A stretch of 64,000 nt of DNA from Flavihumibacter solisilvae (GTDB lineage: Bacteria; Bacteroidota; Bacteroidia; Chitinophagales; Chitinophagaceae): positions 62,001-126,000 of the forward strand of contig NZ_JSVC01000009.1 of assembly GCF_000814475.1 (NCBI RefSeq). Reading direction: 5' to 3'. This document shows, piece after piece, positions 13,193 through 42,209 of the stretch. A program made the position numbers and the translations under genes. Numbering within the stretch: position 1 is the stretch's first letter; each line of letters begins with the position of its first letter. The notes beneath the pieces are model-generated. The model made no database searches and had not been told where the DNA came from. It saw only the letters and a list, made by a program, of their open reading frames with translations.

Positions 13193-13201
13193 GGTAAAAA
13201 A

Positions 13202-13575
13202 ATCTTCTCTCCTGTAAGCCGGATTCTGTCTCACCCGAAAGTGAGGGCTATCATTTATCTGGCCGTACCATTACTGGCACGATCTATCTGCCTACCCTCC
13301 GGTGTTGACAGTCGGGCTGTCATCGGGCGGGCAACCCTCTACCACCGGTATACATGGCATTTCAGCATACAAGGTTTACCCGTACCTGGCATTACTGCCG
13401 GGTACCGTAGGCTCTTACCCTACATTTTCACCTTTTCCTCGTTGGAGGTAGTCATTTTCTGTGGCACTGTCTGTAAGCGGTTACCCGCTTCCCGGCCGTT
13501 AGCCGGTGTATTGCCCTATGCTGTCCGGACTTTCCTCGACCTGCAGCGCAGTCCGCGATAGCCCGGAGAGAAGAT
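13202..13575 (-). ncRNA. rnpB: RNase P RNA, bacterial class A
   Basis: Read on the minus strand, the RNA begins and ends with an 11-bp perfect P1 helix (13565-13575 with 13202-13212). The 5' P4 core 'GAGGAAAGTCCGGAC' lies near 13524-13540, and the 3' conserved block 'ACAGAATCCGGCTTACAG' lies near 13210-13233. The length, about 374 nt, is normal for class A. The 3' end runs into a T-tract on the minus strand (13195-13201), a natural terminator. A -7 element lies just upstream. The catalytic RNA removes 5' leaders from tRNA precursors. The plus-strand frame 13241-13561 is an artefact of this RNA. Confidence 0.97.
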
Positions 13576-23536: not shown

Positions 23537-24112
23537 ATGAAAAAGTTTTTTCTAACCCTTGCGGGCAGACTGGTGCTGGCAGTATTTCTGCTGCTGGCAA
23601 CAGGATGCAGCAAATCAGACAATGCGGAGCCGGCCAGAGCTGAGATTCCTTTGGGAGGAAAAGCGCCAGATGAATACCTCGAGATCCGCATAAACGGTGG
23701 CAGCTGGATCAGCCTTGATGGCCTTGCAGCCAATTCTGCACCACACCAATTCGGCATAAGCAGCAATTCAGGATCGTCCATGTTTAACATCAACTGGCCT
23801 GGCGGCGAAGGCTATTTCCGGTGGAGTGACACCGGGAATGTTCCGGCACGAATAAATTTTGCTTACTTCCTTCCCGACAACACTTACTACGTTTCCGGCT
23901 TCAGGTCGAATAATGAATCAAAGGAAACGAGTGGCGGGTTGCTGAATATTAAATCAATCGGCAAGGAAGGTGACGAAGTGAGTGGTTCCTTTGTGATCGG
24001 ACCTGCAGGGCGATTTGATTCAGGCACAGGCAAACACCTGGAGAACGTGATTATCGAAGGACGGTTCAACCTTAAACTGGTAAAAATGTATCGCTCTGCT
24101 AGGGAAGCCTGA
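23537..24112 (+). CDS. Hypothetical lipoprotein
   Basis: 191 residues. I use ATG 23537 because it begins a lipoprotein signal 'MKKFFLTLAGRLVLAVFLLL' with lipobox 'ATGC' (Cys at about 25); the longer frame from 23474 lacks sense upstream. The mature part is beta-rich, with 'INGGSWISLDGLAANSAPHQ' and 'GNVPARINFAYFLPDNTYYV'. I do not recognise the family. The last 14 bp overlap the convergent cytochrome gene. Confidence 0.75.
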   Translation: MKKFFLTLAGRLVLAVFLLLATGCSKSDNAEPARAEIPLGGKAPDEYLEIRINGGSWISLDGLAANSAPHQFGISSNSGSSMFNINWPGGEGYFRWSDTGNVPARINFAYFLPDNTYYVSGFRSNNESKETSGGLLNIKSIGKEGDEVSGSFVIGPAGRFDSGTGKHLENVIIEGRFNLKLVKMYRSAREA

Positions 24113-25502
24113 TCACTGTTGTATCACCAGGCAGCATGGGCAATGAATAATTTCCAGAATCAAGTGCAACATCGGGAAATGCACGCAGCAATGCCGGCCA
24201 GTCGGCATTGCTTATTTCTGTTTGATAGAGATAAAGATGCCTGAGATGCTTCAGTTCCCTGAGTACCTGAATTCCTGAATATGTTACCCGCGTATTTACA
24301 ATATTCAACGACCTGAGATTTTTAAGCGAACGGAGGTGAATGATACTTTGATCCGTCAGGGTTGTATTACTTAACTGCAAACGCCTGAGTAAAGTGTCCC
24401 TGCCAATGAGACGGAAGGCGCTGTCGCTCAGCCGGGCTCCATCCAGTTTAAGCCAGACAAGCTGACCTTTCAATGATTCGAGCAAGCTGATTATACTGTC
24501 TGTTGTGGAAGACGCCGTTACAAAATTCGCTGAAAGGTAATTACTGTTTTGGGCCACCGGCACTATCATTACCCCGGCTTTTTTCAACCTGTTTACGATC
24601 TCTGAAGGTGCAGGTTCTACCGGTACCGCAGGCAGATCATCGTTGATCACCGGCCCGGCTGTTGTTCCTGATTGAAGGGCGGCCAATACAGGTTGTATTC
24701 CGGAAGTCATGGCCAACTGGTTCACCTTACTGTCGAATGGAGCTCCGTTAGTTACCCACCAATGAAGAAAAGCGAGCTCTTCCGGCGTCAGCTGGGCACG
24801 TTCTTTTGGCGGCATGTGCTTTTTTGCATCAATGGGCAGCATCAACCTTTTGATCATTTCGCTTTCGTCGGGGTTGCTGTCCGATATTATCTTCCCATCT
24901 TCACCACCTTTGAGGATAAGTCCGGGCTGGTCGAGCCGCAGTTTGCCTTTTTGTTTGTTTGTACCATGACAGTTGTAACAGCGTGCTTCCAGGAGCGGTT
25001 GTACAATATCGTTATAAACATGGGCTTCCTGCACTTGCGGAATTGGCGGTAGTGCGGGGCCTGTGTCCACTACGTTACCGAAAGATGCCGATAAATAATC
25101 CTCACCATGAGTTAGTGAGCCTCCCAGGTGGCCGGTTGTAGCGACGAGGACTACCAGCAGCGCACTTATCCAGGCAGTAAGTTTTGGATTCAGTCTTCGC
25201 TTATATGTAATGTATAAAGCTATACTTATTACGGCAGTGCCAATTCCCAGCCATCTATGCCTGGTGATCAGAGCCTGGTCATAATCTGCCCCCTGGGAAA
25301 GTAACAGTCCGCTTATACAGGAAACAATAGCAGCAAGCATTCCCCAAAAGATCATCACAGGGACTGCAGGTTGTAATGAAGGAGATTTTCCAATCGTTGC
25401 AACGAGCCTGAAAATGGAAGCCATCAATAAAATGCCAATGGGAAAATGTACCAGCATGGGATGCAGGTGACCAACAAATTCCGTAATTGACAGTATTGTC
25501 AT
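24099..25502 (-). CDS. Membrane c-type cytochrome: DUF2231 + PSCyt1-type haem domain + leucine-rich repeats
   Basis: 467 residues. Residues 1-125 are a DUF2231 membrane domain with four helices and histidines in 'GHLHPMLVHFPIG'. A c-type haem domain of the planctomycete type (PSCyt1) follows with CYNCH at 175-179, then a Lys/Gly-rich 'KGKLRLDQPGLILKGGEDG' stretch usual in PSCyt1. Residues about 330-455 are leucine-rich repeats ('LKNLRSLNIVNTRVT', 'LKHLRHLYLYQTEIS'). An earlier ATG frame overlaps the upstream gene; ATG 25502 leaves 17 bp. It is the last gene of the six-gene operon and probably its membrane electron carrier (inference). Confidence 0.88.
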   Translation of the reverse strand: MTILSITEFVGHLHPMLVHFPIGILLMASIFRLVATIGKSPSLQPAVPVMIFWGMLAAIVSCISGLLLSQGADYDQALITRHRWLGIGTAVISIALYITYKRRLNPKLTAWISALLVVLVATTGHLGGSLTHGEDYLSASFGNVVDTGPALPPIPQVQEAHVYNDIVQPLLEARCYNCHGTNKQKGKLRLDQPGLILKGGEDGKIISDSNPDESEMIKRLMLPIDAKKHMPPKERAQLTPEELAFLHWWVTNGAPFDSKVNQLAMTSGIQPVLAALQSGTTAGPVINDDLPAVPVEPAPSEIVNRLKKAGVMIVPVAQNSNYLSANFVTASSTTDSIISLLESLKGQLVWLKLDGARLSDSAFRLIGRDTLLRRLQLSNTTLTDQSIIHLRSLKNLRSLNIVNTRVTYSGIQVLRELKHLRHLYLYQTEISNADWPALLRAFPDVALDSGNYSLPMLPGDTTVIRLP

Positions 25503-25519
25503 AGGGCTTGCTGTATCTT

Positions 25520-26452
25520 TTACTGGTATCTTTTTCGCAACAATTGCATCATGTGCACGTTGATTGCCCATTGGTCTGACAAAGCCTGGCGCGTGTATGG
25601 CAAAGTAGGCATATAGTCGGCCGGACCAAACTCGGTAAGGAAGGTCATTCGTTCGCCGGTTTTCTTTTTGCGGTCGACGACCTTGTCCCACCACCCGAAA
25701 TGCTGTGACACAGCTTCATTCCATTCAGGTGCGCGCGGGTCATTTACCTGGGGCCCTTCGGCATGGCCGATCCGTGCATGGATATGTTCTACTTTGTCAA
25801 GCGCCATGGACACAGTTTCCTGTTGGTCCGCAAGCAGGCTTTCGTGGACATTGCACCAATGCGACACATCGAACGTAAGTTTCAGTTCGGGAAGTTTCTC
25901 TATGAACTGGCGGCAGATGTTTGCAGCAAACATCATTCTTCCCCTGTGAGTTTCGTGGCAGATCGGGATCCCGGTTTTCTTCGACTGTGCAATGGTATGC
26001 TCTATAAACATGCGGTTCTGGTCAAAAGAAAAGAAGTCCTTCCCCGAATGGCAATTGACATACAGCGGTTTCCTGAAGCGGTTTTCAGAAGCGGCATCAA
26101 CTGCAGAACGAAAGGTATTAAAGTGTTCACGGGGATCGGTTTGCCATCCGGCGCAAAGAAATCCTACCTGCAGGTTGTGCTTTTCAAGTGCAGCAAACAA
26201 TTCCTGTTGCGCCTTCTGGTCATCACCCGGCCACCAGATTTCAATTCCGTCATAACCTTCTTTTTTTGCAGCTGCGCAAAACTGGTCGGTAGTTCCTTCA
26301 AAGCCCCAGTTGGTTGCCAGGACTATAAGTTCATACGTTTTATTCATGTGAGCGTTTAAAATTGGCGTAGCAAAACTATCCAGCGACGAAAGCATAAGGC
26401 CCAGCGAAGCGGAAGATGCGGATCCGATAAAAGTTCTCCTGTTTATACTCAT
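25520..26452 (-). CDS. Exported TIM-barrel sugar isomerase/epimerase family protein
   Basis: 310 residues with a Tat-like N-terminus 'MSINRRTFIGSASSASLGLM'. The xylose-isomerase-like TIM barrel carries plausible metal ligands on successive strands: Glu in 'PICHETHRG', Asp in 'LTFDVSHWCN', His in 'HIHARIGHAEG' and Glu in 'FLTEFGPADY'. Relatives include isomerases, epimerases, endonuclease-like and keto-sugar lyase proteins, so the reaction is open. Its stop overlaps nothing, but its start overlaps the DUF1501 stop by 4 bp (ATGA type), so the two are translationally linked. Confidence 0.9.
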   Translation of the reverse strand: MSINRRTFIGSASSASLGLMLSSLDSFATPILNAHMNKTYELIVLATNWGFEGTTDQFCAAAKKEGYDGIEIWWPGDDQKAQQELFAALEKHNLQVGFLCAGWQTDPREHFNTFRSAVDAASENRFRKPLYVNCHSGKDFFSFDQNRMFIEHTIAQSKKTGIPICHETHRGRMMFAANICRQFIEKLPELKLTFDVSHWCNVHESLLADQQETVSMALDKVEHIHARIGHAEGPQVNDPRAPEWNEAVSQHFGWWDKVVDRKKKTGERMTFLTEFGPADYMPTLPYTRQALSDQWAINVHMMQLLRKRYQ

Positions 26453-27960
26453 GCAATTATTTCATTGATCACTTTCCCGGCAACATCAGTGAGCCGGAAA
26501 GGTCGTCCCTGGAACGGATATGTAAATGTTTCGTGATTAAAACCAAGTTGATTCAGGATGGTTGCCTGTATATCATAGGCTTCCACTTTTCCTTTAATGG
26601 CATAATAACCAATTTCATCGGTTTCACCATAAGTAATTCCTTTTTTTATTCCACCACCTGCCATCCAGATGGTGAATGCATCGGTATGATGATCGCGGCC
26701 TTTGAATGGGTTCTGGGCTCCATTGCGGTTTTCCATCATTGGTGTGCGGCCGAATTCACCTCCCCATACCACCAGCGTTTCTTCGAGGAGTCCACGTTGC
26801 TTCAGGTCGAGCAGCAAAGCCGTTACGGGCTTGTCTATACTGCGGTATTTATTGATCATGCCTATGTTCAATGAGTTAGAAGCATTATCGCCATGAGCAT
26901 CCCAGCCCCAGTCAAAAAGCTGCACAAAACGAACACCTTTTTCTACCAGCTTACGGGCAAGTAACACGTTGTTCGCAAAACATGCTTCGCCTGGTTTTGT
27001 GCCATACATTTCATGGATATAAGAAGGCTCGTCGTTTATGTTCATGACTTCCGGTGCAGTGATCTGCATCCGGAAAGCCATTTCGTATTGAGAAATGCGC
27101 GACAGGATCTCCGGATCATTATACTCTTTATACTCCTGCATGTTAGCCGCATTGATCGCATCGACCGAGGCTCTGCGCACATTCCTGCTCATGCCATCCG
27201 GATCGTTTATAAACAGGACCGGATCTCCTTCGCTGCGACATTGAACGCCCTGGTATACAGAAGGCAGGAAGCCACTTCCCCAAACACTTTTACCTGCATC
27301 GGGAAAACTTCCGCCACTGGTTAACACAACGAAGCCAGGCAGGTTCTGGTTGTCGGTACCAAGTCCATATGTCACCCAGCTGCCAATGCTTGGCCTGCCG
27401 AGCCGCGGACTGCCTGTGTGCATCAGTAACTGTGCGGGCGCATGATTGAACTGATCTGTTGTAACAGCCTTCAGGAAAGAAACTTCATCCACAACCGTTG
27501 AAAAATGCGGAAGGTTTTCGCTTACCCACGAGCCTGATTGTCCGTGCCGGCTGAATTTGGCCTGCGGCCCAAGCATTTTTGGGACACCCCTGATGAATGC
27601 GAATTGTTTTCCTTCCATGAGTGACGGCGGGCAATCCTGGCCATCCATCTTCATCAATTCGGGTTTGTAGTCAAATAATTCAAGCTGCGACGGCGCTCCC
27701 GCCATGTGGAGGTAAATAACACTTCTTGCTTTCCCTGCAAATGGTGGTGATTTGGGTAACAATGGATGAGCCGGATCAAAAGCAACAGCTGTGGTTGCAG
27801 GCAAGGAATTGTTGCCACAACCACCAATCATATAACCAATTGCAAGTGCGCCAAGTCCCATGGCACTTTCCCTGATAAAATGCCGCCTGGTGTGCAACCT
27901 GAGTTGCGCCTCCCGGGCCTCCCCCGCCATTCGCTGATCAATGAGTTCCTGCCTGGTCAT
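26449..27960 (-). CDS. Tat-exported DUF1501 protein
   Basis: 503 residues. A twin-arginine signal 'HTRRHFIRESAMGLGALAIG' lies at about 24-43. The rest matches DUF1501 throughout: 'ARSVIYLHMAGAPSQLELFD', 'KFSRHGQSGSWVSENLPH', 'VVWGGEFGRTPMMENRNG' and 'GRDHHTDAFTIWMAGGGIK'. DUF1501 is usually grouped with alkaline-phosphatase-like hydrolases, and its Asp/His-rich segments could bind metal, but no activity is known. In Planctomycetes, Verrucomicrobia and Bacteroidota the gene is typically next to a DUF1549/DUF1553 cytochrome, exactly as here (13 bp upstream). Confidence 0.94.
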   Translation of the reverse strand: MTRQELIDQRMAGEAREAQLRLHTRRHFIRESAMGLGALAIGYMIGGCGNNSLPATTAVAFDPAHPLLPKSPPFAGKARSVIYLHMAGAPSQLELFDYKPELMKMDGQDCPPSLMEGKQFAFIRGVPKMLGPQAKFSRHGQSGSWVSENLPHFSTVVDEVSFLKAVTTDQFNHAPAQLLMHTGSPRLGRPSIGSWVTYGLGTDNQNLPGFVVLTSGGSFPDAGKSVWGSGFLPSVYQGVQCRSEGDPVLFINDPDGMSRNVRRASVDAINAANMQEYKEYNDPEILSRISQYEMAFRMQITAPEVMNINDEPSYIHEMYGTKPGEACFANNVLLARKLVEKGVRFVQLFDWGWDAHGDNASNSLNIGMINKYRSIDKPVTALLLDLKQRGLLEETLVVWGGEFGRTPMMENRNGAQNPFKGRDHHTDAFTIWMAGGGIKKGITYGETDEIGYYAIKGKVEAYDIQATILNQLGFNHETFTYPFQGRPFRLTDVAGKVINEIIA

Positions 27961-27973
27961 AAAAACTATTTAC

Positions 27974-30712
27974 TCAGTTCTTCATAATAACTTCATCCAG
28001 GTTCAACATAGCATTGGCCACAACCACTAGCGCTGCCGTTTGCGGATTATTATTCTCATCCAGCAATCCTGTCATTTCACAGGTTCTATCCTTGTCATTC
28101 CTGAAATCTTTCAGGGCCTTGTCATACAGTTCAAGGAACAGTTCCAGTTTGGCAGCCGGCATGTTTCTATACAGCAATAATGTATAACCAGTTGCAATCT
28201 GTTTAGCAGGATCCTGTCCCGCCACCTTTTTCATCCGGAAAGCAAATTGCCGTGAAAGATCAAGATATGCAGAGTCATTAAGGGTTACCAAAGCCTGTAA
28301 GGGTGTGTTGGTCCTGATTCTCCTGGCACTGCAGACATTCCGCTGTGCGCCGTCGAAACTTATCATAGACGGATACGGCGAACTACGCTTCCAGTATGTG
28401 TATATAGCCCTGCGGTATTGATCTTCGCCCGTACTTTTCTCCCAACGTGCATCGTTATACGGTGACAGCCAGATGCCGTCAGGCTGCCAGGGCATCACGG
28501 GTTTTCCAAACATCTTTACGCTCAGTTTCCCGCTAGCCTGCAGCGCCTGGTCACGCACCTGTTCAGCTGTTAACCGGACCCTTGCGCCTCTTGCATAAAA
28601 CCTGTTGAAGAAATCCTTTTCCTTTATCTCATCAGTAAGGCGTGAATCCTGCCGGTAGGTTGCGCTCATAACCATTTCTTTAAGCAGGGATTTAAGACTC
28701 CAACGGTATTCATGCACCAGTCTATAACTCAGGTAGTCGAGCAGCTGCTGGTGCGTTGGAGCTATGCCCTGCGTGCCCATGTCTTCAAGTGTTTCCACAA
28801 TGCCCGTACCAAACAGTTGTTCCCACAATCGATTTACGATAGTCCGGGCTACCAGCGGGTTCTTATCGCTGGTAATCCATTGTGCAAGTCCTGCCCGGTT
28901 TGCCGGGGCATTCTCCGGCATGGCGTATTGCAGGGCGGCGGGAACTGCCGGGGTCACTTCTTTCCCGGGCGTCCGGAAATTTCCCCTTTCAAAGACCTGC
29001 GTTTTTCGCGCCAGGTTCGCTGGGTTTTCCAGCATGATGGGTGTTCCGGGAACCGGGGCCTCAAGCAGTTGACGGTAGACGTCATGATATTTACTGTATT
29101 CTTTTGTTCCTTTCCCCGGCAATTTCACGCTTGCCGCTATCCAACCGAAAGACATTCCGTCTTCATATTTCCCCTTTGGCATCAGGGAATTTTCATAACT
29201 GAGATAAATGTCATGGACTCCCTGTTGCGTTGAAAACCCGGTATATCCATATTGCCAGTTTGCCGATGGTTTAATTGTGTAAACAGCGATTACAGGTCCG
29301 TGGATGGAATCTTTACGGAATGTCAGCTTCCCTCCCTTCCGCTGTGAATAAAACTGCCAGATGAACTGATCGTTTCCGCTGAGGTCCATATTTCGGATCC
29401 GGGCTATTGAATGGTTCCGTAACAACAACCCGTGATTGTTCAAAATGATAACGGCATTGACCAGGCTGTCCGCAGTTGTGGAATTGATGGCAGGCTGATG
29501 TGTCCGGATGAGCCATTCAATTTGCTGTGATCTTTCTTTCGATGAGTGCCGGCTGACCCAATCAGACAGGTCATTGAGTTGGCGCTGCATTGTGTCCGTG
29601 AACTGACGCATTACCGGGAACTCCTCATCAATGTCTTCATCACGGGTATTATTGAAATAGGCCAGGAATTTATAGTATTCATCATGTTTGAATGGGTCAT
29701 AAGGATGACTGTGACATTGCACACATGAAAAGGTTGTACCCATGATCGCTTCCCAGGTGGTATTGACCCTGTCTGTCACTGCTGCCACGCGGAATTCTTC
29801 ATTGTCGGTACCTCCTTCGTCATTGGTCATGGTATTGCGGTGAAATGCTGTTGCAATAAAATCCTCACCCGATGCACCCGGTAACAGATCCCCGGCAATC
29901 TGCGCTGTAAGGAACCGGTCATATGGCATGTCTTCATTAAATGCTTTGATTACCCAGTCACGGTATTGCCAAATCGACCGGCCTCCATCAGATTCATATC
30001 CTTTTGTATCGGCATACCGTGCAAGATCCAGCCACATAGAAGTCCAACGCTCGCCGAATTGCGGGCTGGCAAGTAATGAGTCGACTAATATTTCATACGA
30101 TTGTCCGCTATTGTTTTGCAGGTAATTCCTGCATATACTATCTGAAGGATAGATACCGATAAGGTCAAGGCTAACGCGGCGTAACAAGGTAGCTTTTGGA
30201 GCTTCGGAAGAAGGTGTTATTTTTTCCCCGTTGAGTTTTTGCAGGATGTACTTATCGATGTCATTCTTTACCCAGGGATCTTCTATCCCGGGAACAGCAG
30301 TCTGTTTTACCGGCAGGTAAGCCCAATGATCGCCCCACTTCGCTCCTTCCCTTATCCAGCGTTTCAGTGTTTTTATTTCTTCATGGGATAATGGCTCGTG
30401 TTTATACGGCATTCTCTCCTCTTCATCGTTGGAAGTAATGCGGCGGATCATCTCGCTTGACCCGGGATCTCCCGGAATTATCGCTGGTTTACCTGACTCG
30501 GTCGCTGCAAGCGCTTCCTCACGGAATAATACACTAAAGCCGGCCTTTGCCCTGACACCACCATGACATGTGATACATTTCTTGTTAAGGATTGGTTTTA
30601 CCTGGGAGCTAAAGTCAACCGGTGAAGGACGCAAAAAAGCTACTGCGCAGGTTATGAGTACGATCATTCCCACAATCACGAGCAACTTTTTCCTGGTGAA
30701 GAAAAGCTTCAA
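27974..30712 (-). CDS. Di-haem PSCyt1-DUF1549-DUF1553 protein
   Basis: 912 residues. A signal anchor (about 9-27) precedes the PSCyt1 haem domain with CITCH at 46-50 and 'GDPGSSEMIRRI' and 'MPYKHEPLSHEEIKTLKRWI' behind it. DUF1549 (about 147-355) ends in a second haem motif, CVQCH at 330-334, followed by 'SHPYDPFKHDEYY'. A beta-rich insert (about 400-560) leads to DUF1553 (about 600-890, 'NPLVARTIVNRLWEQLFGTG', 'PTHQQLLDYLSYRL', 'RLTAEQVRDQALQASG'). The architecture is best known from Planctomycetes. Function is unproven; a periplasmic oxidoreductase or electron carrier is likely from the haems. It is followed directly by DUF1501. Confidence 0.95.
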   Translation of the reverse strand: MKLFFTRKKLLVIVGMIVLITCAVAFLRPSPVDFSSQVKPILNKKCITCHGGVRAKAGFSVLFREEALAATESGKPAIIPGDPGSSEMIRRITSNDEEERMPYKHEPLSHEEIKTLKRWIREGAKWGDHWAYLPVKQTAVPGIEDPWVKNDIDKYILQKLNGEKITPSSEAPKATLLRRVSLDLIGIYPSDSICRNYLQNNSGQSYEILVDSLLASPQFGERWTSMWLDLARYADTKGYESDGGRSIWQYRDWVIKAFNEDMPYDRFLTAQIAGDLLPGASGEDFIATAFHRNTMTNDEGGTDNEEFRVAAVTDRVNTTWEAIMGTTFSCVQCHSHPYDPFKHDEYYKFLAYFNNTRDEDIDEEFPVMRQFTDTMQRQLNDLSDWVSRHSSKERSQQIEWLIRTHQPAINSTTADSLVNAVIILNNHGLLLRNHSIARIRNMDLSGNDQFIWQFYSQRKGGKLTFRKDSIHGPVIAVYTIKPSANWQYGYTGFSTQQGVHDIYLSYENSLMPKGKYEDGMSFGWIAASVKLPGKGTKEYSKYHDVYRQLLEAPVPGTPIMLENPANLARKTQVFERGNFRTPGKEVTPAVPAALQYAMPENAPANRAGLAQWITSDKNPLVARTIVNRLWEQLFGTGIVETLEDMGTQGIAPTHQQLLDYLSYRLVHEYRWSLKSLLKEMVMSATYRQDSRLTDEIKEKDFFNRFYARGARVRLTAEQVRDQALQASGKLSVKMFGKPVMPWQPDGIWLSPYNDARWEKSTGEDQYRRAIYTYWKRSSPYPSMISFDGAQRNVCSARRIRTNTPLQALVTLNDSAYLDLSRQFAFRMKKVAGQDPAKQIATGYTLLLYRNMPAAKLELFLELYDKALKDFRNDKDRTCEMTGLLDENNNPQTAALVVVANAMLNLDEVIMKN

Positions 30713-30741
30713 GGCAACCGTTAATACCCAAATTTAAAACA

Positions 30742-32802
30742 TTAACGGGGCTCTGAAAACAGGATCCCGGCGGGTAGCAGATCCTTTTGTCCACCATTCG
30801 GACTCCAGTATACTTTCAGCTCATTGCCACCGCCGCTGTCAAAGTACACCACCCTGATCCGGTGATAGCCCTTTTTAAGTGCGGCCACTCCCGACTTTTC
30901 CACCGAACCATGTTCGCCGTCGTTGTTAACTGTTTCCTGGTCATTAATATACAGTTTGCTGCCATCGTCCGAAAGGGTGAAAAATTCATAAATCCCGTCG
31001 GCCTTGATGTTTATATATCCATCGAAAGAGAGTGCATATTTTTCTGCACGTACTTTAACCTTTTCCGAAATTTCACTGGCAGTACCCTGTTTGACCGGTT
31101 TGGATGTTTCGATGGAATTCAACGTAATTTTTCCTTCAGGCTCGAAATATTTCCAGCTGATACCGGGCGACAGCTTTTTCCGTTTCACCGGCTTCTGCCA
31201 TTCATAACGTTTCACCTCGTTGCTTACCGTATTGCTTGGCAGCTGGTCATGACGGAATCTTTTTGCCTTGATGGTAGCAGATCTTTCCAGTGCGACAGGT
31301 CCCATATAGAGGATTGAACTATCATTTGGCTCTGTGCCGTCAGTGGTATACCGGATCTCATCGTGGTTTGTGGTAGCGGTGGTAAACTGGATGATTGGCT
31401 GCAGGGAACCATCGGGGTACAGGACATTCATAACAGGCTTCTCTGCAAATGTGCCGAAGTCCAGGATCTTGATGGCATAGGCATAAGGCGAAGAATAACT
31501 GTTCGGATCATACTCAGGCAGATTGATAACAAGATTACCTGATTCATTACGGTATGAAACGTGTTCATTGGTTGCCAGCATCCTTACAAGTGTACCGTTG
31601 GGAAGCGTGAGATTCTTTAAAGTCAGCTTCCGGTCTGACGGATATTTTGGAAAGATCACATACAGTGAATTCGTTTTGCTGTTCCAGGTGTAATACAGAT
31701 CGCGGCCCTGTGATGGGGTGCGCCAGCGGGATGTGCCATAGATTGCCTCACCGTTTACTTTCAGCCAGTCACCAATCTGCAGTAATCTTTCCTGCATGAT
31801 CGGTGGAATTTTACCGTGTTCATCGGGTCCGATATCGAGCAGGAAATTTCCGCCCCTGCTGACTTTGTCCACCAGCGCTACGACCAATGATTGCGTAGAA
31901 TTATAATCCCATGCATCTTCACCACGATTATAACCATAGCTGTGCCCCATTCCCCTGCTCTCTTCGAAGGCGTGATTCTCGAAGTCAAGGTCGGGCTGGT
32001 ATTCCGGTGTATATACACTTCCGTGATGAAAGCGAACCCCACTTCCCCAACGATCGTAGGTTACGATGCTGTTACGCACGGGGCTTTCATTGTATAACCA
32101 GGCAAGGAATTCCTGGCTTCTCCAGGTTTCGGCCGGAGCATCCCACTCACCATCAGTCCAGAAGACATCGGGCTTATAGGTATTGACCAGTTCTTTCATT
32201 TGCGGCCACATATGCTCGTTGACATATCGCGTCCTGTCCGTTTTCCATAACGGGTTGTACCATTCATAGAGTGAATAATACATTCCGGGACGTACCGACG
32301 TTTTTCTTACCGCAGCAAACAGTTCTCCTAAAAGATCACGGTTGGGCCCTGTTTCTTTTGCATTCCAGGGAAAGCCCCAGGTCTGGCTGGCAGTTTTGCT
32401 GGGCCAAAGACAATAACCATCGTGGTGTTTGCTTGTTAATACAATATATTTCGCACCGGATCTTTCAAAAAGACTGGCCCATTCATCCGGGTTAAATAAC
32501 TCCGCTTTGAAATCTTTGGCCAAATCATAGTAAGAGCGGTTGCCGAACCTCGCTTTATGATATTTAATCCTTGCCGTATCGCCCGATTCCAAACCATTCT
32601 GATACCACTCCGCATACTGGGTTTTGCCGCTCCATCCCGGGACAGAATAAACGCCCCAATGAATAAAAATTCCAAATTTGTCGTGGCTGAACCAGTCAGG
32701 AACTTTGCGTTTGTCGAGACTTTCCCAATCGGGCTGAAAGGTCTGTGCAACGGCGCATAAACCGGAACCCATGATCAGGATGGCAAGGAATATTTTTTTC
32801 AT
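30742..32802 (-). CDS. Alpha-L-fucosidase (GH29) with CHB_HEX_C and PA14-like C-terminal domains
   Basis: 686 residues. ATG 32802 gives a signal peptide 'MKKIFLAILIMGSGLCAVAQ'; the frame extends 44 codons further but without a plausible leader. The GH29 catalytic barrel (about 25-340) has 'FGIFIHWGVYSVPGW', 'SKHHDGYCLW' and the nucleophile Asp217 in 'PDVFWTDGEW'. A chitobiase-type C-terminal domain ('IRYTTDGTEPNDSSILYMG') and a PA14-like domain ('YINIKADGIYEFFTLSDDGS') follow, both common carbohydrate-contact modules. It should release terminal alpha-L-fucose in the periplasm or outside. It lies between a TIM-barrel gene and the cytochrome gene. Confidence 0.95.
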   Translation of the reverse strand: MKKIFLAILIMGSGLCAVAQTFQPDWESLDKRKVPDWFSHDKFGIFIHWGVYSVPGWSGKTQYAEWYQNGLESGDTARIKYHKARFGNRSYYDLAKDFKAELFNPDEWASLFERSGAKYIVLTSKHHDGYCLWPSKTASQTWGFPWNAKETGPNRDLLGELFAAVRKTSVRPGMYYSLYEWYNPLWKTDRTRYVNEHMWPQMKELVNTYKPDVFWTDGEWDAPAETWRSQEFLAWLYNESPVRNSIVTYDRWGSGVRFHHGSVYTPEYQPDLDFENHAFEESRGMGHSYGYNRGEDAWDYNSTQSLVVALVDKVSRGGNFLLDIGPDEHGKIPPIMQERLLQIGDWLKVNGEAIYGTSRWRTPSQGRDLYYTWNSKTNSLYVIFPKYPSDRKLTLKNLTLPNGTLVRMLATNEHVSYRNESGNLVINLPEYDPNSYSSPYAYAIKILDFGTFAEKPVMNVLYPDGSLQPIIQFTTATTNHDEIRYTTDGTEPNDSSILYMGPVALERSATIKAKRFRHDQLPSNTVSNEVKRYEWQKPVKRKKLSPGISWKYFEPEGKITLNSIETSKPVKQGTASEISEKVKVRAEKYALSFDGYINIKADGIYEFFTLSDDGSKLYINDQETVNNDGEHGSVEKSGVAALKKGYHRIRVVYFDSGGGNELKVYWSPNGGQKDLLPAGILFSEPR

Positions 32803-32842
32803 GTAATGCGGACTTCGGGTTATAGGAAAAGGTAAAGGGAAA

Positions 32843-33769
32843 TTAAAAAGTATCTGCTTCCCGGTAGGCTTTGATAAGCGCAAGTTCACCCTCTTTGCCG
32901 GCACCTGCATTTCCATGTTCCATTCCGAGTACACCTTTATATCCCTTTCCGTGAATATGTTTGAAAATGTTGCGGTAGTTCATTTCACCTGTTCCCGGTT
33001 CATTACGGCCAGGATTATCCCCGATCTGGAAATATGGGGTCTCGCTCCATGTCCGGTCAATGTTCTTGATGATATCGCCTTCATTGCGCTGCATGTGGTA
33101 CATATCAAAAAGAAACTTGCACGACGGACTGTTTACTGCCTGGCAGATCATGAAGGTCTGGTCCGAATGACGTAAAAACAGGTCCGGGTTGTCGCTAAGT
33201 GCTTCAAGAACCATAACTAGCCCGTGAGGTGCCAGTATGTCGGATGCCTTTCTCAGTGCATTGATAACATTTGATGTCTGGAATTCGGTTGACAGGCTGC
33301 GGTCATAGTTTCCCGGAACCACAGTCATCCATTTTGCACCGCATCTTTTAGCAACTTCAACAGCTTCCTTACAATCTTTGATCATCAGGTCCAGGAACTC
33401 CTGCTTGCCGGTAGTGAGGGAAGTCTTCCAATGCCAGTTCTGTGAAGTAATAACAAAAACGCCCATAGTCATTCCCAGCTTTGCAAGGGTTTCACCGATC
33501 TTTTTCTGATCTGCCACTGACCTTGACATCATGCCATTATCTTCAATCGCCCTGAAGCCCATGCTGTGCCCAAATTTAATCTGTTCAACGAAGTCATTTC
33601 CCGCATGGTTTTTAAACATCCCGTCGTGAAAGGCATAATTCAACTGGAAAGGTTTCTCAGCTGCGAGATCTTCCAACCTTAATTTATCATTTTTGGCCAT
33701 AGCTGATGCGGATGTAAAAAGTGCGCCACCTGCGAGCAGTGACTGCTGAACAAATTTTCTTCTTTGCAT
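32843..33769 (-). CDS. Exported TIM-barrel protein (hydroxypyruvate-isomerase-like)
   Basis: 308 residues with a signal that is Tat-like ('MQRRKFVQQSLLAGGALF'). The barrel resembles the Hyi/OtnI group: 'VLEALSDNPDLFLRHSDQT', 'FLFDMYHMQRNEGDIIKNI' and 'GVLGMEHGNAGAGKEGELA' include the expected Glu, Asp-x-His and C-terminal Glu. Known relatives interconvert hydroxypyruvate or act on keto sugars, but these are cytoplasmic; here export points to a different substrate. It is the first gene of the operon, facing apbE across 55 bp. Confidence 0.9.
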   Translation of the reverse strand: MQRRKFVQQSLLAGGALFTSASAMAKNDKLRLEDLAAEKPFQLNYAFHDGMFKNHAGNDFVEQIKFGHSMGFRAIEDNGMMSRSVADQKKIGETLAKLGMTMGVFVITSQNWHWKTSLTTGKQEFLDLMIKDCKEAVEVAKRCGAKWMTVVPGNYDRSLSTEFQTSNVINALRKASDILAPHGLVMVLEALSDNPDLFLRHSDQTFMICQAVNSPSCKFLFDMYHMQRNEGDIIKNIDRTWSETPYFQIGDNPGRNEPGTGEMNYRNIFKHIHGKGYKGVLGMEHGNAGAGKEGELALIKAYREADTF

Positions 33770-33824
33770 GCAAATCGGTTTGAGTCTTAAATTTACCGGG
33801 TTTCCGTTTTAAAAAGTAAATATA

Positions 33825-34865
33825 TTGTTTAACAGGTTAATTTTTGCTGCGCTTCTGTTAATTACCACCTGTAACTGTGGGGCACAAACGCAGATCAACG
33901 ATAATCTTCACCTACAGAGATTTCGTTTTACAGAACAAAAGATGGGATCTCCATTCGGGATCACTATGTATGCTCGTGACAGCTTACAGGCAGCGACGAT
34001 TTCACAACGTTGCTTCAGCCTGGTCGATTCGCTTGTGCTGATCTTCAGTGACTATATCGACAGCAGTGAAGTAAACAGGTTATGCGCAACGGCAGGCAAA
34101 CCGGGGCAGTACTTCATTGTGTCGCCGGCGTTATTCGAACTGCTGGAAATTTCCCTGCAGGCATACCGCCTCAGCGAAAGAAGTTTCGATATCACGTTAG
34201 GTCCATTGTCACGCCTCTGGCGCCGTGCAAGAAAAGAAAAACAATGGCCAGCTGACTCAACGGTGACTGCAAAACTGCAGCTTATCGGGTCAGACAAGAT
34301 TGTCCTGGATGCCAGGACACGAAAGGTTGTGCTCCTGGAAGAATATATGCAGCTTGACTTTGGGGGAATTGCACAGGGCTATATTGCCGACCAGGTAATC
34401 AGGTTGATTTCTTCTGCGGGAATCACTGGTGCGCTTGTAGATGTTTCCGGCGATATCATCTGTATCGGCACACCACCAGGGGCGGCCGGATGGAACATTG
34501 GAATCAATGTGCCGGATAATGGTGAGCAACTTTTGACCAAGACTCTGCATATTCAGAATAAAGCAGTGACGACTTCAGGAAACATTTACCAGTATATGGT
34601 CCATGACGGTAAAAAATATTCACATGTGATCGATCCGCGAACCGGTTATGGCCTTACCAGCAGCCGGAATGTTACAGTTATCGCAAACGATTGCACTACC
34701 GCCGACTGGCTCACAAAAGCATGCAGCATAATGCCGCTAAAAAAAGCCAGGAAGCTCTCAAAGCGGCTACAGGCGGGCTTTTTGATCGCCGAACTGGAAA
34801 ACGGAAAACTGAAAACATATAGTAACCGGTTGTTCCGGAACTACTGGAAGCAATCTGCCCCGTAA
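33825..34865 (+). CDS. apbE: FAD:protein FMN transferase ApbE
   Basis: 346 residues. The N-terminal 'RLIFAALLLITTCNCGAQ' is a signal, possibly with a lipobox Cys. The ApbE core is clear: 'MGSPFGITMYARDS', 'RSFDITLGPLSRLWR', 'MQLDFGGIAQGYIADQV', 'DVSGDIICIG', 'YSHVIDPRTGYGLTSSRN' and the metal-site region 'TTADWLTKACSIM'. ApbE attaches FMN covalently to a Thr in extracytoplasmic flavoproteins. No FMN-binding partner is in view. Upstream the frame is closed by TAA at 33810 and there is no ATG, so TTG 33825 is the start. Confidence 0.93.
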   Translation: MFNRLIFAALLLITTCNCGAQTQINDNLHLQRFRFTEQKMGSPFGITMYARDSLQAATISQRCFSLVDSLVLIFSDYIDSSEVNRLCATAGKPGQYFIVSPALFELLEISLQAYRLSERSFDITLGPLSRLWRRARKEKQWPADSTVTAKLQLIGSDKIVLDARTRKVVLLEEYMQLDFGGIAQGYIADQVIRLISSAGITGALVDVSGDIICIGTPPGAAGWNIGINVPDNGEQLLTKTLHIQNKAVTTSGNIYQYMVHDGKKYSHVIDPRTGYGLTSSRNVTVIANDCTTADWLTKACSIMPLKKARKLSKRLQAGFLIAELENGKLKTYSNRLFRNYWKQSAP

Positions 34866-34908
34866 CTAATTATAACTTATCTTGGGAAAATTATTAATCG
34901 AATTTGTT

Positions 34909-35886
34909 GTGAGAAGATCTCTATTAACCTCTGCCACATCACTCGTTTTTGTCAGCCTTGCTTTTCCACTTTTTTCATCTGCGCAAAGCAGTGAATCCTT
35001 TAAGGCATACAAGCAATCCATTCCCGGTTCAGACATCAGTTTTGAAATGGTTCCGATTCCCGCCGGCGACTTCACTCCCGGTAGCCCGGTTTCGGAAAAG
35101 GACCGGAATAAAGATGAAGGACCTGGTAAAACCGTACGCTTATCTGCATTCTGGATGGCTTCGATGGAAGTAAGCCGTGATGCATTTGATGTGTTTTACA
35201 AAGATGACAAAACTAGCCAGAATTCTGCGGTGGACGCAGTTACGCGTCCTAGTCCCCAATATATCGATTTCAGCCTGGGGATGGGCAAAGAAGGCGGATA
35301 CCCTGTAAATAGTCTCAGTCAATATGCAGCACTGATGTATTGTCGCTGGCTGTACGAAAAAACGGGCACTTTTTACCGGCTGCCGACAGAGCTGGAATGG
35401 GAATATGCCTGCAGGGCCGGTGCAAGCGGGAAATATTATTTCGGTAACGACGAAAAGCAATTGGCACAGTACGCATGGTACAGTAGTAATAGCGAGAATA
35501 AATTTCATAAGAGCGGCCAGAAAAAACCAAATGCATGGGGACTTTATGACATGCTCGGAAATGTGAGTGAGTGGACGCTCGATCACTACAATGAAGATGC
35601 CCTTGCAAAATTGGAGAAAGGGGTCACTGACCCAAAGCCACCATTCAGTTCTTCCCGTTATCCGAAAGTGCTGAAAGGAGGTGGATTTAGCGATGAGGCT
35701 ACCACCCTTCGCTGTGCCGGAAGGATAAAATCAGATCCCTCTTGGAATCGCCGGGATCCCCAGATCCCAAAGAGCAAGTGGTGGCTTACCGATGCCGGTT
35801 CCGTCGGATTCCGCATTGTAAGGCCGCAGCAGCAGCCGACACCGGAAGCAGCAAAAGCCTTCTTTGAGCAATATTTAGGTAAATAA
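34909..35886 (+). CDS. SUMF1/formylglycine-generating-enzyme-fold protein, catalytic Cys pair absent
   Basis: 325 residues from GTG 34909, which gives a good signal peptide 'RRSLLTSATSLVFVSLAFPL'; TTG 34882 is the alternative. The fold is typical: 'FEMVPIPAGDFTPGSPVSE', 'YPVNSLSQYAALMYCRWLYE', 'YRLPTELEWEYACRAGASG', 'MLGNVSEWTLDHY' and 'GFRIV' at the end. In true formylglycine-generating enzymes the GGS segment carries two catalytic cysteines. Here the segment is 'KGGGFSDEATTLRCAGRI', with only the more distal Cys, so sulfatase activation is unlikely. It may instead be a structural or ligand-binding relative, as GldK/GldJ are. Confidence 0.88.
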   Translation: MRRSLLTSATSLVFVSLAFPLFSSAQSSESFKAYKQSIPGSDISFEMVPIPAGDFTPGSPVSEKDRNKDEGPGKTVRLSAFWMASMEVSRDAFDVFYKDDKTSQNSAVDAVTRPSPQYIDFSLGMGKEGGYPVNSLSQYAALMYCRWLYEKTGTFYRLPTELEWEYACRAGASGKYYFGNDEKQLAQYAWYSSNSENKFHKSGQKKPNAWGLYDMLGNVSEWTLDHYNEDALAKLEKGVTDPKPPFSSSRYPKVLKGGGFSDEATTLRCAGRIKSDPSWNRRDPQIPKSKWWLTDAGSVGFRIVRPQQQPTPEAAKAFFEQYLGK

Positions 35887-35951
35887 GAGTAAAAAAGTAC
35901 AACAGCTGGCGCCCAAAATTCAATATTTTAGACAATACATAAATCCTGAAC

Positions 35952-37301
35952 ATGACATTCGATGCTTCCAACAAAAAAGAAACTTCCCGCAGGGAATTTG
36001 TACGACAGTCGGGTATACTCGCAGGTGGACTGATGGCTGCTCCACTTATCTCCAATGCAAATTATTTTTCCGGTTCGTCCGATGTGATTAAAGTCGCCCT
36101 GGTTGGTTGTGGTGGCCGGGGAACCGGTGCTGCCATGCAGGCAATGCTGAGCAAACAGAATGTTCGCCTGGTTGCCATGGCTGATGCGTTCCGCGACCGC
36201 CTCGACAGCTGTTATAAAATTCTTTCAGCTGATGACATTTCTGACTGGACAAGTGCCGTTCCTAATGTAAAGGATAAGATCGACGTTCCGGAGGAAAGGA
36301 AATTTACAGGCTTCGACGGATACCAGAAAGCAATTGCTCTCGCAGATGTGGTGATCCTGACTACACCTCCCGGTTTCAGGCCAGTTCATTTTGAAGAGGC
36401 GATCAAACAGGGAAAACATGTGTTCATGGAGAAACCCGTCGCAGTTGATCCTGCTGGTGTACAGAAAGTGCTGGCAGCCGCCGCTGTTGCAAAGCAAAAG
36501 AAACTGAACGTAGTTGTTGGATTACAGCGTCATTACCAGAATTCATACCGCGAACTTTTCAAACGTAAAGACCTGATCGGTGATATCATTTCCGCACAGG
36601 CATGGTGGAATAATGACGGTGTATGGGTTCACGAACGTAAGGCAGACGAGAACGAAATGGAATACCAGATGCGTAACTGGTATTACTTCAACTGGCTTTG
36701 CGGTGATCATATTAACGAACAGCATATCCATAATATCGATGTAATTAACTGGTTCAAAGGCAGCTACCCGGTGAAAGCACAGGGTATGGGAGGCCGCCAG
36801 GTGAGAAAGGGAAAAGATCATGGTGAAATCTTTGACCACCACTTCGTAGAATTCACTTATGCGGATGGCTCCATCCTTAATAGCCAGTGCCGTCATATTC
36901 CCGGAACAATGAGCCGTGTTGACGAGCTGCTGATCGGGACAAAGGGCAAAATTTACTGCAATGCTGCAAACATCGTTGACAGCAAGGGCAAATCACTTTT
37001 CAAGCACTCTGGAAAGAATGATCCTAACCCCTACCAGGTTGAACATGATGAATTGTTTGCTGCTATTGCAAAAGGTCAGTACCTGTTCGCAGACGCCGAA
37101 AATGGCGCAAAAAGCACAATGACTTCTATCCTCGGTCGGATGGCTACCTACAGTGGCCAGATCGTTGAGTGGGATAAAGCAATCAACAGCGGCATCGACC
37201 TGGCGCCGAAATCCTATGCCTGGGACGCCACACCGCCCGTACTTCCAAACTCCGATGGTTACTACGCCGTTGCGGTTCCCGGTGTCACCAAATTCGTCTA
37301 A
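35952..37301 (+). CDS. Tat-exported Gfo/Idh/MocA-family oxidoreductase
   Basis: 449 residues. A twin-arginine signal 'SRREFVRQSGILAGGLMAAP' begins at about 12. The Rossmann motif follows as 'VIKVALVGCGGRGTGAAMQA', then 'GKHVFMEKPVAVDP' (EKP) and 'WLCGDHINEQHIHNIDVINW', which carries the conserved His pair region. The C-terminal domain is of the GFO_IDH_MocA_C type. An exported family member is expected to keep its NAD tightly bound, as in glucose-fructose oxidoreductase. The substrate is unknown but should be a sugar or a glycoside. It lies next to the SUMF1-like gene, 65 bp downstream. Confidence 0.94.
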   Translation: MTFDASNKKETSRREFVRQSGILAGGLMAAPLISNANYFSGSSDVIKVALVGCGGRGTGAAMQAMLSKQNVRLVAMADAFRDRLDSCYKILSADDISDWTSAVPNVKDKIDVPEERKFTGFDGYQKAIALADVVILTTPPGFRPVHFEEAIKQGKHVFMEKPVAVDPAGVQKVLAAAAVAKQKKLNVVVGLQRHYQNSYRELFKRKDLIGDIISAQAWWNNDGVWVHERKADENEMEYQMRNWYYFNWLCGDHINEQHIHNIDVINWFKGSYPVKAQGMGGRQVRKGKDHGEIFDHHFVEFTYADGSILNSQCRHIPGTMSRVDELLIGTKGKIYCNAANIVDSKGKSLFKHSGKNDPNPYQVEHDELFAAIAKGQYLFADAENGAKSTMTSILGRMATYSGQIVEWDKAINSGIDLAPKSYAWDATPPVLPNSDGYYAVAVPGVTKFV

Positions 37302-37322
37302 ACCAACAGAACCAATAACCTC

Positions 37323-37351
37323 AGCCCCGCAAAATCCCTGCGGGGCTTTTT
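37323..37351 (+). terminator. Terminator after the Tat-exported oxidoreductase gene
   Basis: Perfect 8-bp stem AGCCCCGC / GCGGGGCT with a 9-nt loop, followed by seven T residues. It lies about 20 bp after the stop. Confidence 0.9.
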
Positions 37352-37353
37352 TT

Positions 37354-37380
37354 CACCCGTCGGGTCCCACCCGTCGGGTG
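37354..37380. repeat. Tandem palindromic 12-mer CACCCGTCGGGT
   Basis: Two copies (37354-37365 and 37368-37379) separated by CC. Each contains the palindrome ACCCG-t-CGGGT, so each can form a small hairpin. They lie directly after the terminator. The role is not known. Confidence 0.7.
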
Positions 37381-37422
37381 AGAATGGGCGAAAAAACGGT
37401 ATTTTAGGAGAAAGTTCCTGTT

Positions 37423-38088
37423 ATGAAGAGAGTTGCACCAACCGGAGGGCGGAGGGAGTTTTTGCGGAAGTCGTTGTTGCTGTCGTCGGTAATTGCTGGT
37501 GCCGGCGTACCTGCATGGGCGAAAGAGCAGGCAGCTGCGACCGATGGACAAGGTCTGTATGTGATCGGACCTATGGAGGGGTATACACCCCATATTGGTA
37601 CAATGGTTTCCATGCTTAATTACAACCGCGATACGATCGTCAGGACAACAAAGTCACTGTCCATGTCAGAACTTGATCACCTGCACGACCCGAATGCCAA
37701 CACTATCGGAGCACTGCTTATGCACCTTGGTGCGGTTGAAAAATGGTACCAGATCAATTCATTTGAAAAAAGAAATGAATTCAATGCAGAAGAAAAAAAG
37801 CTCTGGGACGCGGGGTTAAATCTTGGTGACGCAGGAAGACAAAACATTAAGGGAAAGGAATTGAAATATTACATCGACCTGATTACGGAAGTCCGGAACA
37901 GAACACTCGAAGAGTTCAAAAAACGCGACGACACCTGGCTTCTTGCCGTTGATCCTGACTTCGGTCGTGGAGAGAAATTCAATACCTACTGGAAATGGTT
38001 CCATGTTTGCGAGCACGAGTCAAATCACAGAGGGCAGATCACCTGGCTCAAAGGACGGTTACCAGGCGCAAAACCGGGCAGGGAATAA
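37423..38088 (+). CDS. Exported DinB/YfiT-fold putative metalloenzyme
   Basis: 221 residues. An N-terminal Tat-like signal 'RREFLRKSLLLSSVIAGAGV' is followed by a DinB four-helix bundle: 'HIGTMVSMLNYNRDTIVRTT', 'GALLMHLGAVEKWYQ' and 'WFHVCEHESNHRGQITWLKG'. The His in the second helix and the two in 'HESNHRG' form the usual three-His metal site. DinB relatives include thiol transferases and hydrolases. Export is unusual for this fold, which mostly acts in the cytoplasm. The context suggests a role with the exported redox genes next to it (inference). Confidence 0.9.
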   Translation: MKRVAPTGGRREFLRKSLLLSSVIAGAGVPAWAKEQAAATDGQGLYVIGPMEGYTPHIGTMVSMLNYNRDTIVRTTKSLSMSELDHLHDPNANTIGALLMHLGAVEKWYQINSFEKRNEFNAEEKKLWDAGLNLGDAGRQNIKGKELKYYIDLITEVRNRTLEEFKKRDDTWLLAVDPDFGRGEKFNTYWKWFHVCEHESNHRGQITWLKGRLPGAKPGRE

Positions 38089-42100: not shown

Positions 42101-42209
42101 GACCGATCAGTTCTTCCTGCGCCTGCAGTTTAACAGTGAGGCAGGTAAGAATAAGGGGAAGCCAAATCAAAAGCCTCCCCATGGCTTTGAAGCGTGTAAA
42201 GATATTCAT
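39162..42209 (-). CDS. Secreted GloVer-type repeat protein with T9SS type A sorting domain
   Basis: 1015 residues. A signal peptide ends near residue 31 ('LILTCLTVKLQAQ'). About thirteen repeats of roughly 50 residues follow (about 60-710), each with 'GSLVQATDGNFYGMT', 'GGTIFKITPAGV' and 'VLRHLN..TDGGYP' elements, as in the Gloeobacter/Verrucomicrobia extracellular repeat family. They should form a large propeller-like surface. One repeat (near residue 575) lacks about five residues. Then come a cadherin/Ig-like part ('TATDVDAGQTKTFSLLTPPA') and the type A sorting domain ('TLYPNPVSGGQCSIVLEE', 'LRPGIYIVQVRTENSQQSF'). Ligand unknown. Confidence 0.93.
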   Translation of the reverse strand: MNIFTRFKAMGRLLIWLPLILTCLTVKLQAQEELIGLSSNGGQEGKGTAFSIMTNGTGFSIIKGFADWGAGPLGHLVRGADGNMYGTSYQGGTYGHGTIFKVTSAGVVTVLKHLNLSVDGGYPKGSLLLASDGNFYGTVSGGSPNNGGAIFRITPAGVYTIVRSLSINTDGGRPAGSLIQATDGNLYGLNYAGGASSYGTIFRLSLTGVYTVLKVFNNVDGSNPYGSLVQATDGNFYGMTYGGGATKFGVIFKMTPAGVYTILRSFNGTTDGGYPLGSLVQGKDGLLYGMATARGGFSNGTVFKISTAGVFTLLKALSATVEGAGPEGHLIQASDGNFYGMTAYSSGGTNGTVFKMTPAGVITVLNKFVSATTGAGPAGSLYQHTDGNFYGMTNSGGTNFYGTIFKITPAGVTTVISHLSGASHGNEPQDRLVLGKDSAYYGTTRFGGTKNHGTIFKICGGITSVLRHLDKNITGGNPVGSLLRATDGNFYGTTETGGTNGAGTIFRITPTGALNVIRHLVANTDGGYPKGSLVQGTDGALYGMTSSGGTGAGGTVFKITTAGVFTVLRHLAYATDGSNPEGDLVFGKDGNLYGMTYNASRFFRVTTAGVFTVLTTFNSTTQGSYPTGGLILAKDGNFYGTHTTGGTNRGGTIFRITTAGAVTVLRHLNPATDGSVPKGTLLQATDGNLYGLTSAGGTFNSGTIFRVTTAGAFTVLRQMNIATDGAAAFGGVILAPKNNLVALPQANLALKEDGTLAVVLKGTGTTTPVFNIAVAPRNGTLTGTGANRVYKPKLNYNGRDSFAFTISVGCLSSKPAYVSFNIAAVNDTPVLAPIGPKTATRGVAMTFRATATDVDAGQTKTFSLLTPPAGALINATTGTFTWTPAAAGKFSVKVRVTDNGSPTLYDEETVVVTVANPPTGLASGSGAMTKTGIVQTNTLYPNPVSGGQCSIVLEENFEHVNTIITDTKGTEVLRNIHSIAGGNRLDLDVAKLRPGIYIVQVRTENSQQSFRFIKQ

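Follow-up and report, generated by a model that had tools for sequence, protein, structure and literature searches.

The stretch of Flavihumibacter solisilvae DNA analysed here (the window: 64,000 nucleotides of contig NZ_JSVC01000009.1, positions 62,001 to 126,000) carries ten genes at its positions 24099-38088, which we refer to as A to J (Table 1). Pfam searches and the translations bear out the positions and domains given for these genes in an initial annotation, which had read them as a single exported system for the oxidation of glycans. Comparison with relatives does not uphold that unity, as the complete set of ten was found in none of 29 loci from the host family and in none of 80 named loci, and conservation of the ten as one set was therefore rejected. 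Instead, two smaller groups are conserved. Genes D, C, B and A (module 1, 24099-30712), with D first in transcription order, constitute a four-gene cassette centred on a protein with two predicted haem sites, while F, H and I, with G as an optional member, make up module 2. When it is asked, as the initial annotation proposed, whether the ten families stay together in other Bacteroidota, the two modules are seen to do so and the ten as a unit are not.

Table 1. Genes and features of the locus, with positions in the window.
Feature	Position	Strand	Assignment (basis)
A	24099..25502	-	DUF2231 membrane domain, PSCyt1 cytochrome c (CXXCH at residues 175-179) and leucine-rich repeat (LRR); module 1 (Pfam; LRR below cut-off)
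B	25520..26452	-	Twin-arginine TIM barrel, AP_endonuc_2; module 1 (Pfam)
C	26449..27960	-	DUF1501, twin-arginine, probable lipoprotein; module 1 (Pfam)
D	27974..30712	-	PSCyt1-DUF1549-(CBM6)-DUF1553 with two CXXCH motifs; module 1 (Pfam, AlphaFold2 model, alignment)
CBM6-like insert of D	29123..29485	-	About residues 410-530 (Foldseek, Pfam on slices)
E	30742..32802	-	GH29 alpha-L-fucosidase, Fucosidase_C and PA14; variable neighbour of module 1 (Pfam)
F	32843..33769	-	Twin-arginine TIM barrel, hydroxypyruvate isomerase-like; module 2
G	33825..34865	+	ApbE; optional in module 2 (Pfam)
H	34882..35886	+	SUMF1/formylglycine-generating enzyme (FGE)-like, lacking the FGE cysteine pair and closest to PvdO among solved structures; module 2
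I	35952..37301	+	Twin-arginine Gfo/Idh/MocA oxidoreductase; module 2
J	37423..38088	+	Exported-looking DinB/MST-like protein; probably a bystander (Pfam)

The 80 named loci are relatives kept from a larger number of matches in a search of genome contigs, and 78 of them bear Bacteroidota titles. D is present in all 80, C in 75, A in 67 and B in 58. When the 22 loci with less than 6 kb of sequence after D are dropped, C is found in 56 of the remaining 58, A in 55 and B in 47, and the order D-C-(B)-A is kept in 55, the exceptions being L129, L132 and L152 (L and G numbers denote our loci and genomes). Because this order is maintained, and because phmmer labelled none of F, G, H, I and J in any of the 80 loci, D-C-B-A is a four-gene cassette and the ten genes are not one. 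The complete cassette occurs in Chitinophagaceae, Sphingobacteriaceae, Saprospiraceae and Cyclobacteriaceae, among others, and among named isolates it is carried by Niabella pedocola, Pedobacter caeni and Segetibacter aerophilus. Loci of the host family (f1) have D C-termini identical to those in named records of Segetibacter aerophilus, Lacibacter cauensis and Flavisolibacter ginsengisoli, in keeping with its being Chitinophagaceae. The D proteins fall into three length classes of about 780, 920 and 1080 residues, with the D of the window in the 920 class; a second 920-class D gene lies in tandem or near-tandem in L039, L041, L088, L094 and L099. Two loci under other titles, L097 (Beijerinckiaceae) and L105 (Williamsia), carry the Bacteroidota cassette and are possibly mislabelled or contaminated bins, the D of L105 being that of the family genome G077.

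Protein D exceeds the Pfam cut-offs for PSCyt1 (56.6 bits), DUF1549 (266.4 bits) and DUF1553 (289.8 bits). Both of its CXXCH motifs (residues 46-50 and 330-334), which are predicted to bind haem, are invariant in an alignment of 65 sequences, as are M101 with the first motif and H336 with the second. Structure prediction of the DUF1501 and DUF1553 proteins, the other computational check put forward for this locus, used 65 rows for D and 60 rows for C selected from relatives; it indicated a CBM6-like insert in D and an alkaline phosphatase-superfamily fold for C. The AlphaFold2 model of D has a mean predicted local distance difference test (pLDDT) score of 84.6 and contains a beta-sandwich at about residues 410-530. 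In Foldseek the top solved matches to this insert are CBM6 modules (1gmm, E 4.3e-6, template modelling (TM) score 0.78 by target length), and Pfam CBM_6 was the best match in seven of seven homologue slices, including that of the window, with three of the seven over the cut-off. The class of about 780 residues seems to be without the insert, since these proteins, when aligned to D, skip approximately residues 365-560. Against the sequences of solved structures phmmer gave three weak matches to D, namely the FoxE cytochrome domain (E 0.0018), one designed-type chain (E 0.66) and a CBM6 chain (E 0.98). NCBIfam returned no matches for A, B, C, D, E or J.

Protein C matches the full DUF1501 profile above the Pfam cut-off (479.9 bits), and no relative of it was found among solved-structure sequences (E up to 1). 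Its AlphaFold2 model, built from the 60 sequences, has a mean pLDDT of 74.9, and Foldseek aligned it, with TM scores of 0.3-0.4 and E values down to about 1e-6, to LtaS, choline sulfatase, sulfamidase and alkaline phosphatase. A fold of the alkaline phosphatase/sulfatase superfamily is thus predicted by a model that is only fair. A local hhalign comparison of C with 11 of the 14 PF00884 matches in its own genome aligned 96 columns near the C-terminus (E 2.2e-6) and placed Glu402 on the Asp of the D-N-G motif; global hhalign against these sulfatases gave nothing useful. A loose extension of the alignment puts His173 at the formylglycine Cys, where C reads H-A-P-A-Q, and six of the 11 comparison sulfatases fit the C/S-x-P-x-R pattern used. 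H173, D354, H356, E402 and H424 are invariant in the 60 rows. Since the invariant H173 stands at the apparent place of the formylglycine Cys, it is unlikely that C is an orthodox sulfatase. The possibility that C is a formylglycine sulfatase matured by H was rejected on the motifs of the two proteins, with the caution that the loose alignment is what fixes the position of the nucleophile.

Of the remaining cassette proteins, A has an invariant CXXCH, an invariant M230 and five invariant His in its DUF2231 part (50 rows); the histidines are no more than suggestive of a bound haem b. In B, residues E167, D195, H225 and E274 are invariant in a 41-row alignment, and we take these to be the metal ligands of xylose-isomerase-like barrels. 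No relative of B was found among solved-structure sequences (E up to 0.01).

Some genes around the cassette suggest a link to sugars. E matches Alpha_L_fucos above the cut-off (368.5 bits) and is predicted to have fucosidase activity. The 40 family loci were split into 29 with a D of about 920 residues, which were tested with the window left out, and 11 of other classes. GH29 genes lie within about 10 kb of D in five of the 29, with 0.69 expected (P 7e-4), and number nine against 0.7; the expectation was taken from the GH29 count and rounded size of each genome, the counts for G028 and G045 possibly being lower bounds. As controls, none of the 11 loci of other D classes and one of 20 loci of the H-I pair of module 2 had GH29. 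Among the 80 named loci, ten have GH29 at 30 bits or more by phmmer, and ten of ten weaker matches scanned were GH29 by Pfam. With nine named loci that duplicate family loci removed, 16 of 100 unique D loci have GH29 or GH95. On a FastTree phylogeny of 101 D proteins this label requires 16 changes (at least 15 by starred branches) and is unclustered, 334 of 500 shuffles being as low. The association is, on the evidence of these changes, recurrent and labile. Of 144 same-strand neighbours, 75 upstream or inserted and 51 downstream were scanned with Pfam, long, short and partial ones being dropped; Glycoamylase occurred in four of the 75 and GH1 in two of the 51, and fucosidases are therefore not the sole glycosidases near D.

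In several individual loci such genes lie within the cassette or next to it. In L041 and L129 a GH95 gene lies between D and C. L059 has the order Metallophos, GH29, Metalloenzyme, unknown, D, C, B, A, GH95, GH29 (small frames omitted), and L060, whose D is closest to that of the window, has GH29, D, Gfo, 3-keto-disaccharide hydrolase, C, B, A, Metallophos, GH29. In L115 a 3-keto-disaccharide hydrolase and then GH29 follow A. The hydrolases of L060 and L115 were both used as seeds and no further ones were found in the fetched loci. Gfo-type genes are present in eight of the 100 unique D loci, a count given without a background rate, and the host genome has 13 PF06439 matches, none of them in the window. 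A calcineurin-like phosphoesterase was also seen in the GH29-bearing loci L059, L060 and L073, and a Metalloenzyme/sulfatase-type gene in L059 and L073; the glycan might accordingly bear phosphate or sulfate groups. Proteins with no Pfam match stand between GH29 and D in two loci (L059:5645-7816, 723 residues; L083:7773-9938, 721 residues).

Module 2 has its own pattern of conservation. Orthologues of I with 65-79% identity occur in 34 other genomes of the 117 sampled from the family, and the H-I loci of 20 of these were fetched. H adjoins I in all 20, F is present and divergent in 14 and G in five, and none of the 20 had a label for D, C, B, A or J. J was also labelled in none of the 40 family loci or 80 named loci, and it is probably a bystander. 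The initial annotation had placed the ten genes in two divergent units; this agrees with the strands, but conservation groups the TIM-barrel gene F (32843) with the ApbE, SUMF1-like and Gfo genes and not with the DUF1501 cassette. NCBIfam gave only sub-cut-off matches for the four proteins of module 2 (F to I). The likeness of F is to hydroxypyruvate isomerase and ketose 3-epimerases, below every NCBIfam cut-off, and the structural matches of I are inositol dehydrogenase and glucose-fructose oxidoreductase. The solved structure nearest to H is PvdO (5hha, E 1.8e-21), with matches to SUMF1 also. H has Cys only at 154, 177 and 278, and the pair that we take to be the active-site cysteines of FGE is absent from it and unmatched in the SUMF1 alignment. 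A flavinylated partner for the ApbE protein was sought with a pattern for the flavinylation target, and there was no match in the window.

Some details of the gene models and the surroundings should be added. The listed frame of A (24099-25694) overlaps gene B and was for this reason judged over-extended; the gene more probably begins with an ATG at about 25502. A had been described as a DUF2231-cytochrome-LRR protein, of which DUF2231 and PSCyt1 are confirmed, while the LRR (25.6 bits, Pfam cut-off 27) is sub-threshold. Twin-arginine N-termini were read by eye in the translations of B, C, F, I and J, calls of export resting throughout on twin-arginine or hydrophobic N-termini judged in this way. 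In agreement with the initial annotation, a scan of 20 window frames (17422-42854) yielded no SusC/D, no PF00884 sulfatase and no regulator. G+C is flat over the locus, and the host genome is 5.4 Mb in 75 contigs. Genes with type IX secretion tail domains (CHU_C, Por_Secre_tail) flank the locus at 19893-21935 (+) and 39162-42209 (-), and bacterial RNase P class A RNA at 13199-13574 (-) is the sole Rfam match over the gathering score in the window.

Among the genomes examined, that of F. solisilvae alone has the two modules joined, with the GH29 gene at the seam, and they are apart in the 20 others. A partial link is seen in G070, where an F orthologue adjoins D (L041) and H-I are at another place (L231). 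The modules nevertheless tend to be carried by the same genomes. In the family sample PF07587 and I occur together in 29 of the 117 genomes (our own included), I only in six, PF07587 only in 11 and neither in 71 (Fisher 7e-13, shared ancestry ignored). Class-wide, a 920-class D is present in 19 of 395 genomes, I in 25 and both in 16 (Fisher 1.5e-19, shared ancestry again ignored), and this co-occurrence is spread over six family groups (f1, f2, f3, f16, f55 and f68). The genome counts were made by eye from listings, taking about 450 bits as the minimum score for D and 550 bits as that for I; G476, with an I fragment 77% identical at a contig end (153 bits), was counted as D only.

Taken together, we consider it slightly more probable than an even chance that the two extracytoplasmic modules act together in oxidising and dismantling glycosides, with swappable glycosidases, module 1 as a haem-linked core and module 2 as a frequent partner in the same genome. 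The initial idea of glycan oxidation is in this way supported in part as to the role of glycans, to which the CBM6 insert, the excess of GH29 near D and the Gfo and 3-keto-disaccharide hydrolase genes inside the L060 cassette all point, and given up as to the single system; the components that a haem route would need are present, D and A both having CXXCH motifs and an invariant Met. Several observations weigh against this reading. Modules 1 and 2 are separate in 20 of 20 other genomes examined, and the D-I co-occurrence statistics ignore ancestry. The window's own CBM6 slice scores 23.2 bits, below the cut-off of 28.9, and C was modelled with no more than fair confidence (pLDDT 74.9). No GH29 or GH95 is found in 84 of the 100 unique D loci, and a 3-keto-disaccharide hydrolase in just two. 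We know of no established activity for D or C, no oxidase cofactor besides haem was seen in module 1, and at a paralogous locus of F. solisilvae the genes that come after A encode a nucleoside hydrolase and a radical SAM protein. This locus, L033 (G000:C74:44200-64100), has D-C-A without B, followed by an IU_nuc_hydro and a Radical_SAM gene.

Some of these points belong to the strongest rival explanation, in which the modules are independent neighbours by chance with separate exported jobs, and the GH29 and DinB genes are bystanders. The lone adjacency of the modules could indeed be chance, as H-I lie away from D in all the other genomes examined, and the co-occurrence, taken without the species tree, may follow common descent. 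Set against this are its spread over six family groups of the class sample, the F orthologue adjoining D in G070 and the GH29 excess near module 1, and we regard chance neighbourhood as a serious but rather unlikely explanation. It is a good deal less probable, in our estimation, that module 1 works on a non-carbohydrate, in respiratory or cell-envelope redox, with the sugar genes as chance company. The majority of D loci have no glycosidase, and the genes after A in L033, as well as the flavin/2Fe-2S reductase of L058, would suit such a role, but the CBM6-like insert and the recurrence of GH29/GH95 and 3-keto-disaccharide hydrolase neighbours would not. In L058 (2348-9922), the gene after D-C-A encodes FAD-binding, NAD-binding and 2Fe-2S domains and may indicate the destination of the electrons. 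Finally, the locus was described as of planctomycete type, which is apt for its domains but not for any rarity, as PF07587 is present in 40 of the 117 family genomes. Recent import from Planctomycetes, suggested by the domain names alone, is very improbable given this frequency, the Bacteroidota titles of 78 of the 80 relatives, the flat G+C and the place of the window D among Chitinophagaceae rows in the tree of 101 D proteins, which contains no planctomycete sequences and bears on recent transfer only; import was not favoured on these grounds.

If the two modules do act together on glycosides, a sequence of events can be proposed. D would hold a glycan or oligosaccharide by means of its CBM6 insert, and the sugar might be oxidised beside the second haem of D or by the exported Gfo/Idh/MocA enzyme. 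The TIM barrels could then process the keto-sugar by isomerisation, epimerisation or beta-elimination. The DUF1501 protein may be a metal-dependent partner of D rather than an orthodox formylglycine sulfatase. Electrons would leave the haems of D for the cytochrome c of A and continue by way of the histidine-rich DUF2231 membrane domain, which may hold haem b and pass them to quinone, into the respiratory chain, with GH29 and GH95 enzymes as swappable helpers that set the substrate. A more specific proposal is that D-C-B-A is itself a new haem-linked glycoside oxidoreductase, in which the CBM6-bearing DUF1549/DUF1553 protein oxidises glycan at its second c-type haem, DUF1501, with its predicted alkaline-phosphatase fold and a His at the nucleophile position, acts on the same bond and the DUF2231-cytochrome passes electrons to the membrane; this we regard as unlikely, though worth stating.

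Several known systems resemble parts of this arrangement. The PSCyt1, PSCyt2 (DUF1549) and PSD1 (DUF1553) domains of D are those of Rhodopirellula baltica and freshwater Verrucomicrobia genes (PMC2754498 and PMC5615132). In the latter, verrucomicrobial PSCyt genes are reported with CBM domains including CBM_6, constant unknown neighbours and sulfatase genes nearby, and a carbohydrate role was proposed in 2017 with the function given as unknown; a redox role was suggested for the Rhodopirellula PSCyt/PSD genes (PMC2754498). The domains, constant neighbours, CBM fusions and proposed carbohydrate role are thus already known from Verrucomicrobia, and the fusion of a CBM to PSCyt domains has precedent, CBM_6 being one of the modules listed there (PMC5615132). 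The Bacteroidota cassette, as judged from gene orders compared within the Bacteroidota loci, differs from these genes in being a fixed set of four with a TIM barrel and a DUF2231-cytochrome, accompanied in some loci by GH29/GH95 and 3-keto-disaccharide hydrolase. BT2158 of Bacteroides thetaiotaomicron is a periplasmic glycoside 3-dehydrogenase according to PMC11300592. I is likewise an exported-looking Gfo/Idh/MocA protein, and some D loci have members of the TIM-barrel and 3-keto-disaccharide hydrolase families in their neighbourhood; however I scores only 39.1 bits against the BT2158 model NF058561 (cut-off 750), haem proteins are present here, and no 3-keto-disaccharide hydrolase is among the window frames scanned. 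C shares with the alkaline phosphatase/sulfatase superfamily its predicted fold and the local profile match to the 11 own-genome sulfatases, but differs in the His173 at the formylglycine place (by the loose alignment) and in its low TM scores. H is nearest to PvdO and matches SUMF1, but reaches 96 bits against the PvdO model of NCBIfam (cut-off 500) and has no FGE-type cysteine pair. In the frames scanned, the locus is also distinguished from a polysaccharide utilisation locus by having no SusC/SusD pair. In the literature searched, which left out most subscription journals, we found no description of the Bacteroidota cassette of four genes, of the fucosidase and 3-keto-sugar genes beside it or of module 2, and no mention of DUF1501 and DUF1553 together.

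DUF1549, DUF1553 and DUF1501 are widespread, and the function of PSCyt/PSD proteins is given as unknown (PMC5615132) or suggested to be redox (PMC2754498). The proposed glycoside oxidoreductase, if true, would provide a function for the planctomycete cytochrome families, and fucosides would be among their substrates. The compact cassette of four genes in named Bacteroidota isolates, with a sugar-binding-type insert and, in some loci, fucosidase and 3-keto-sugar gene neighbours, makes the question of their function testable by experiment.

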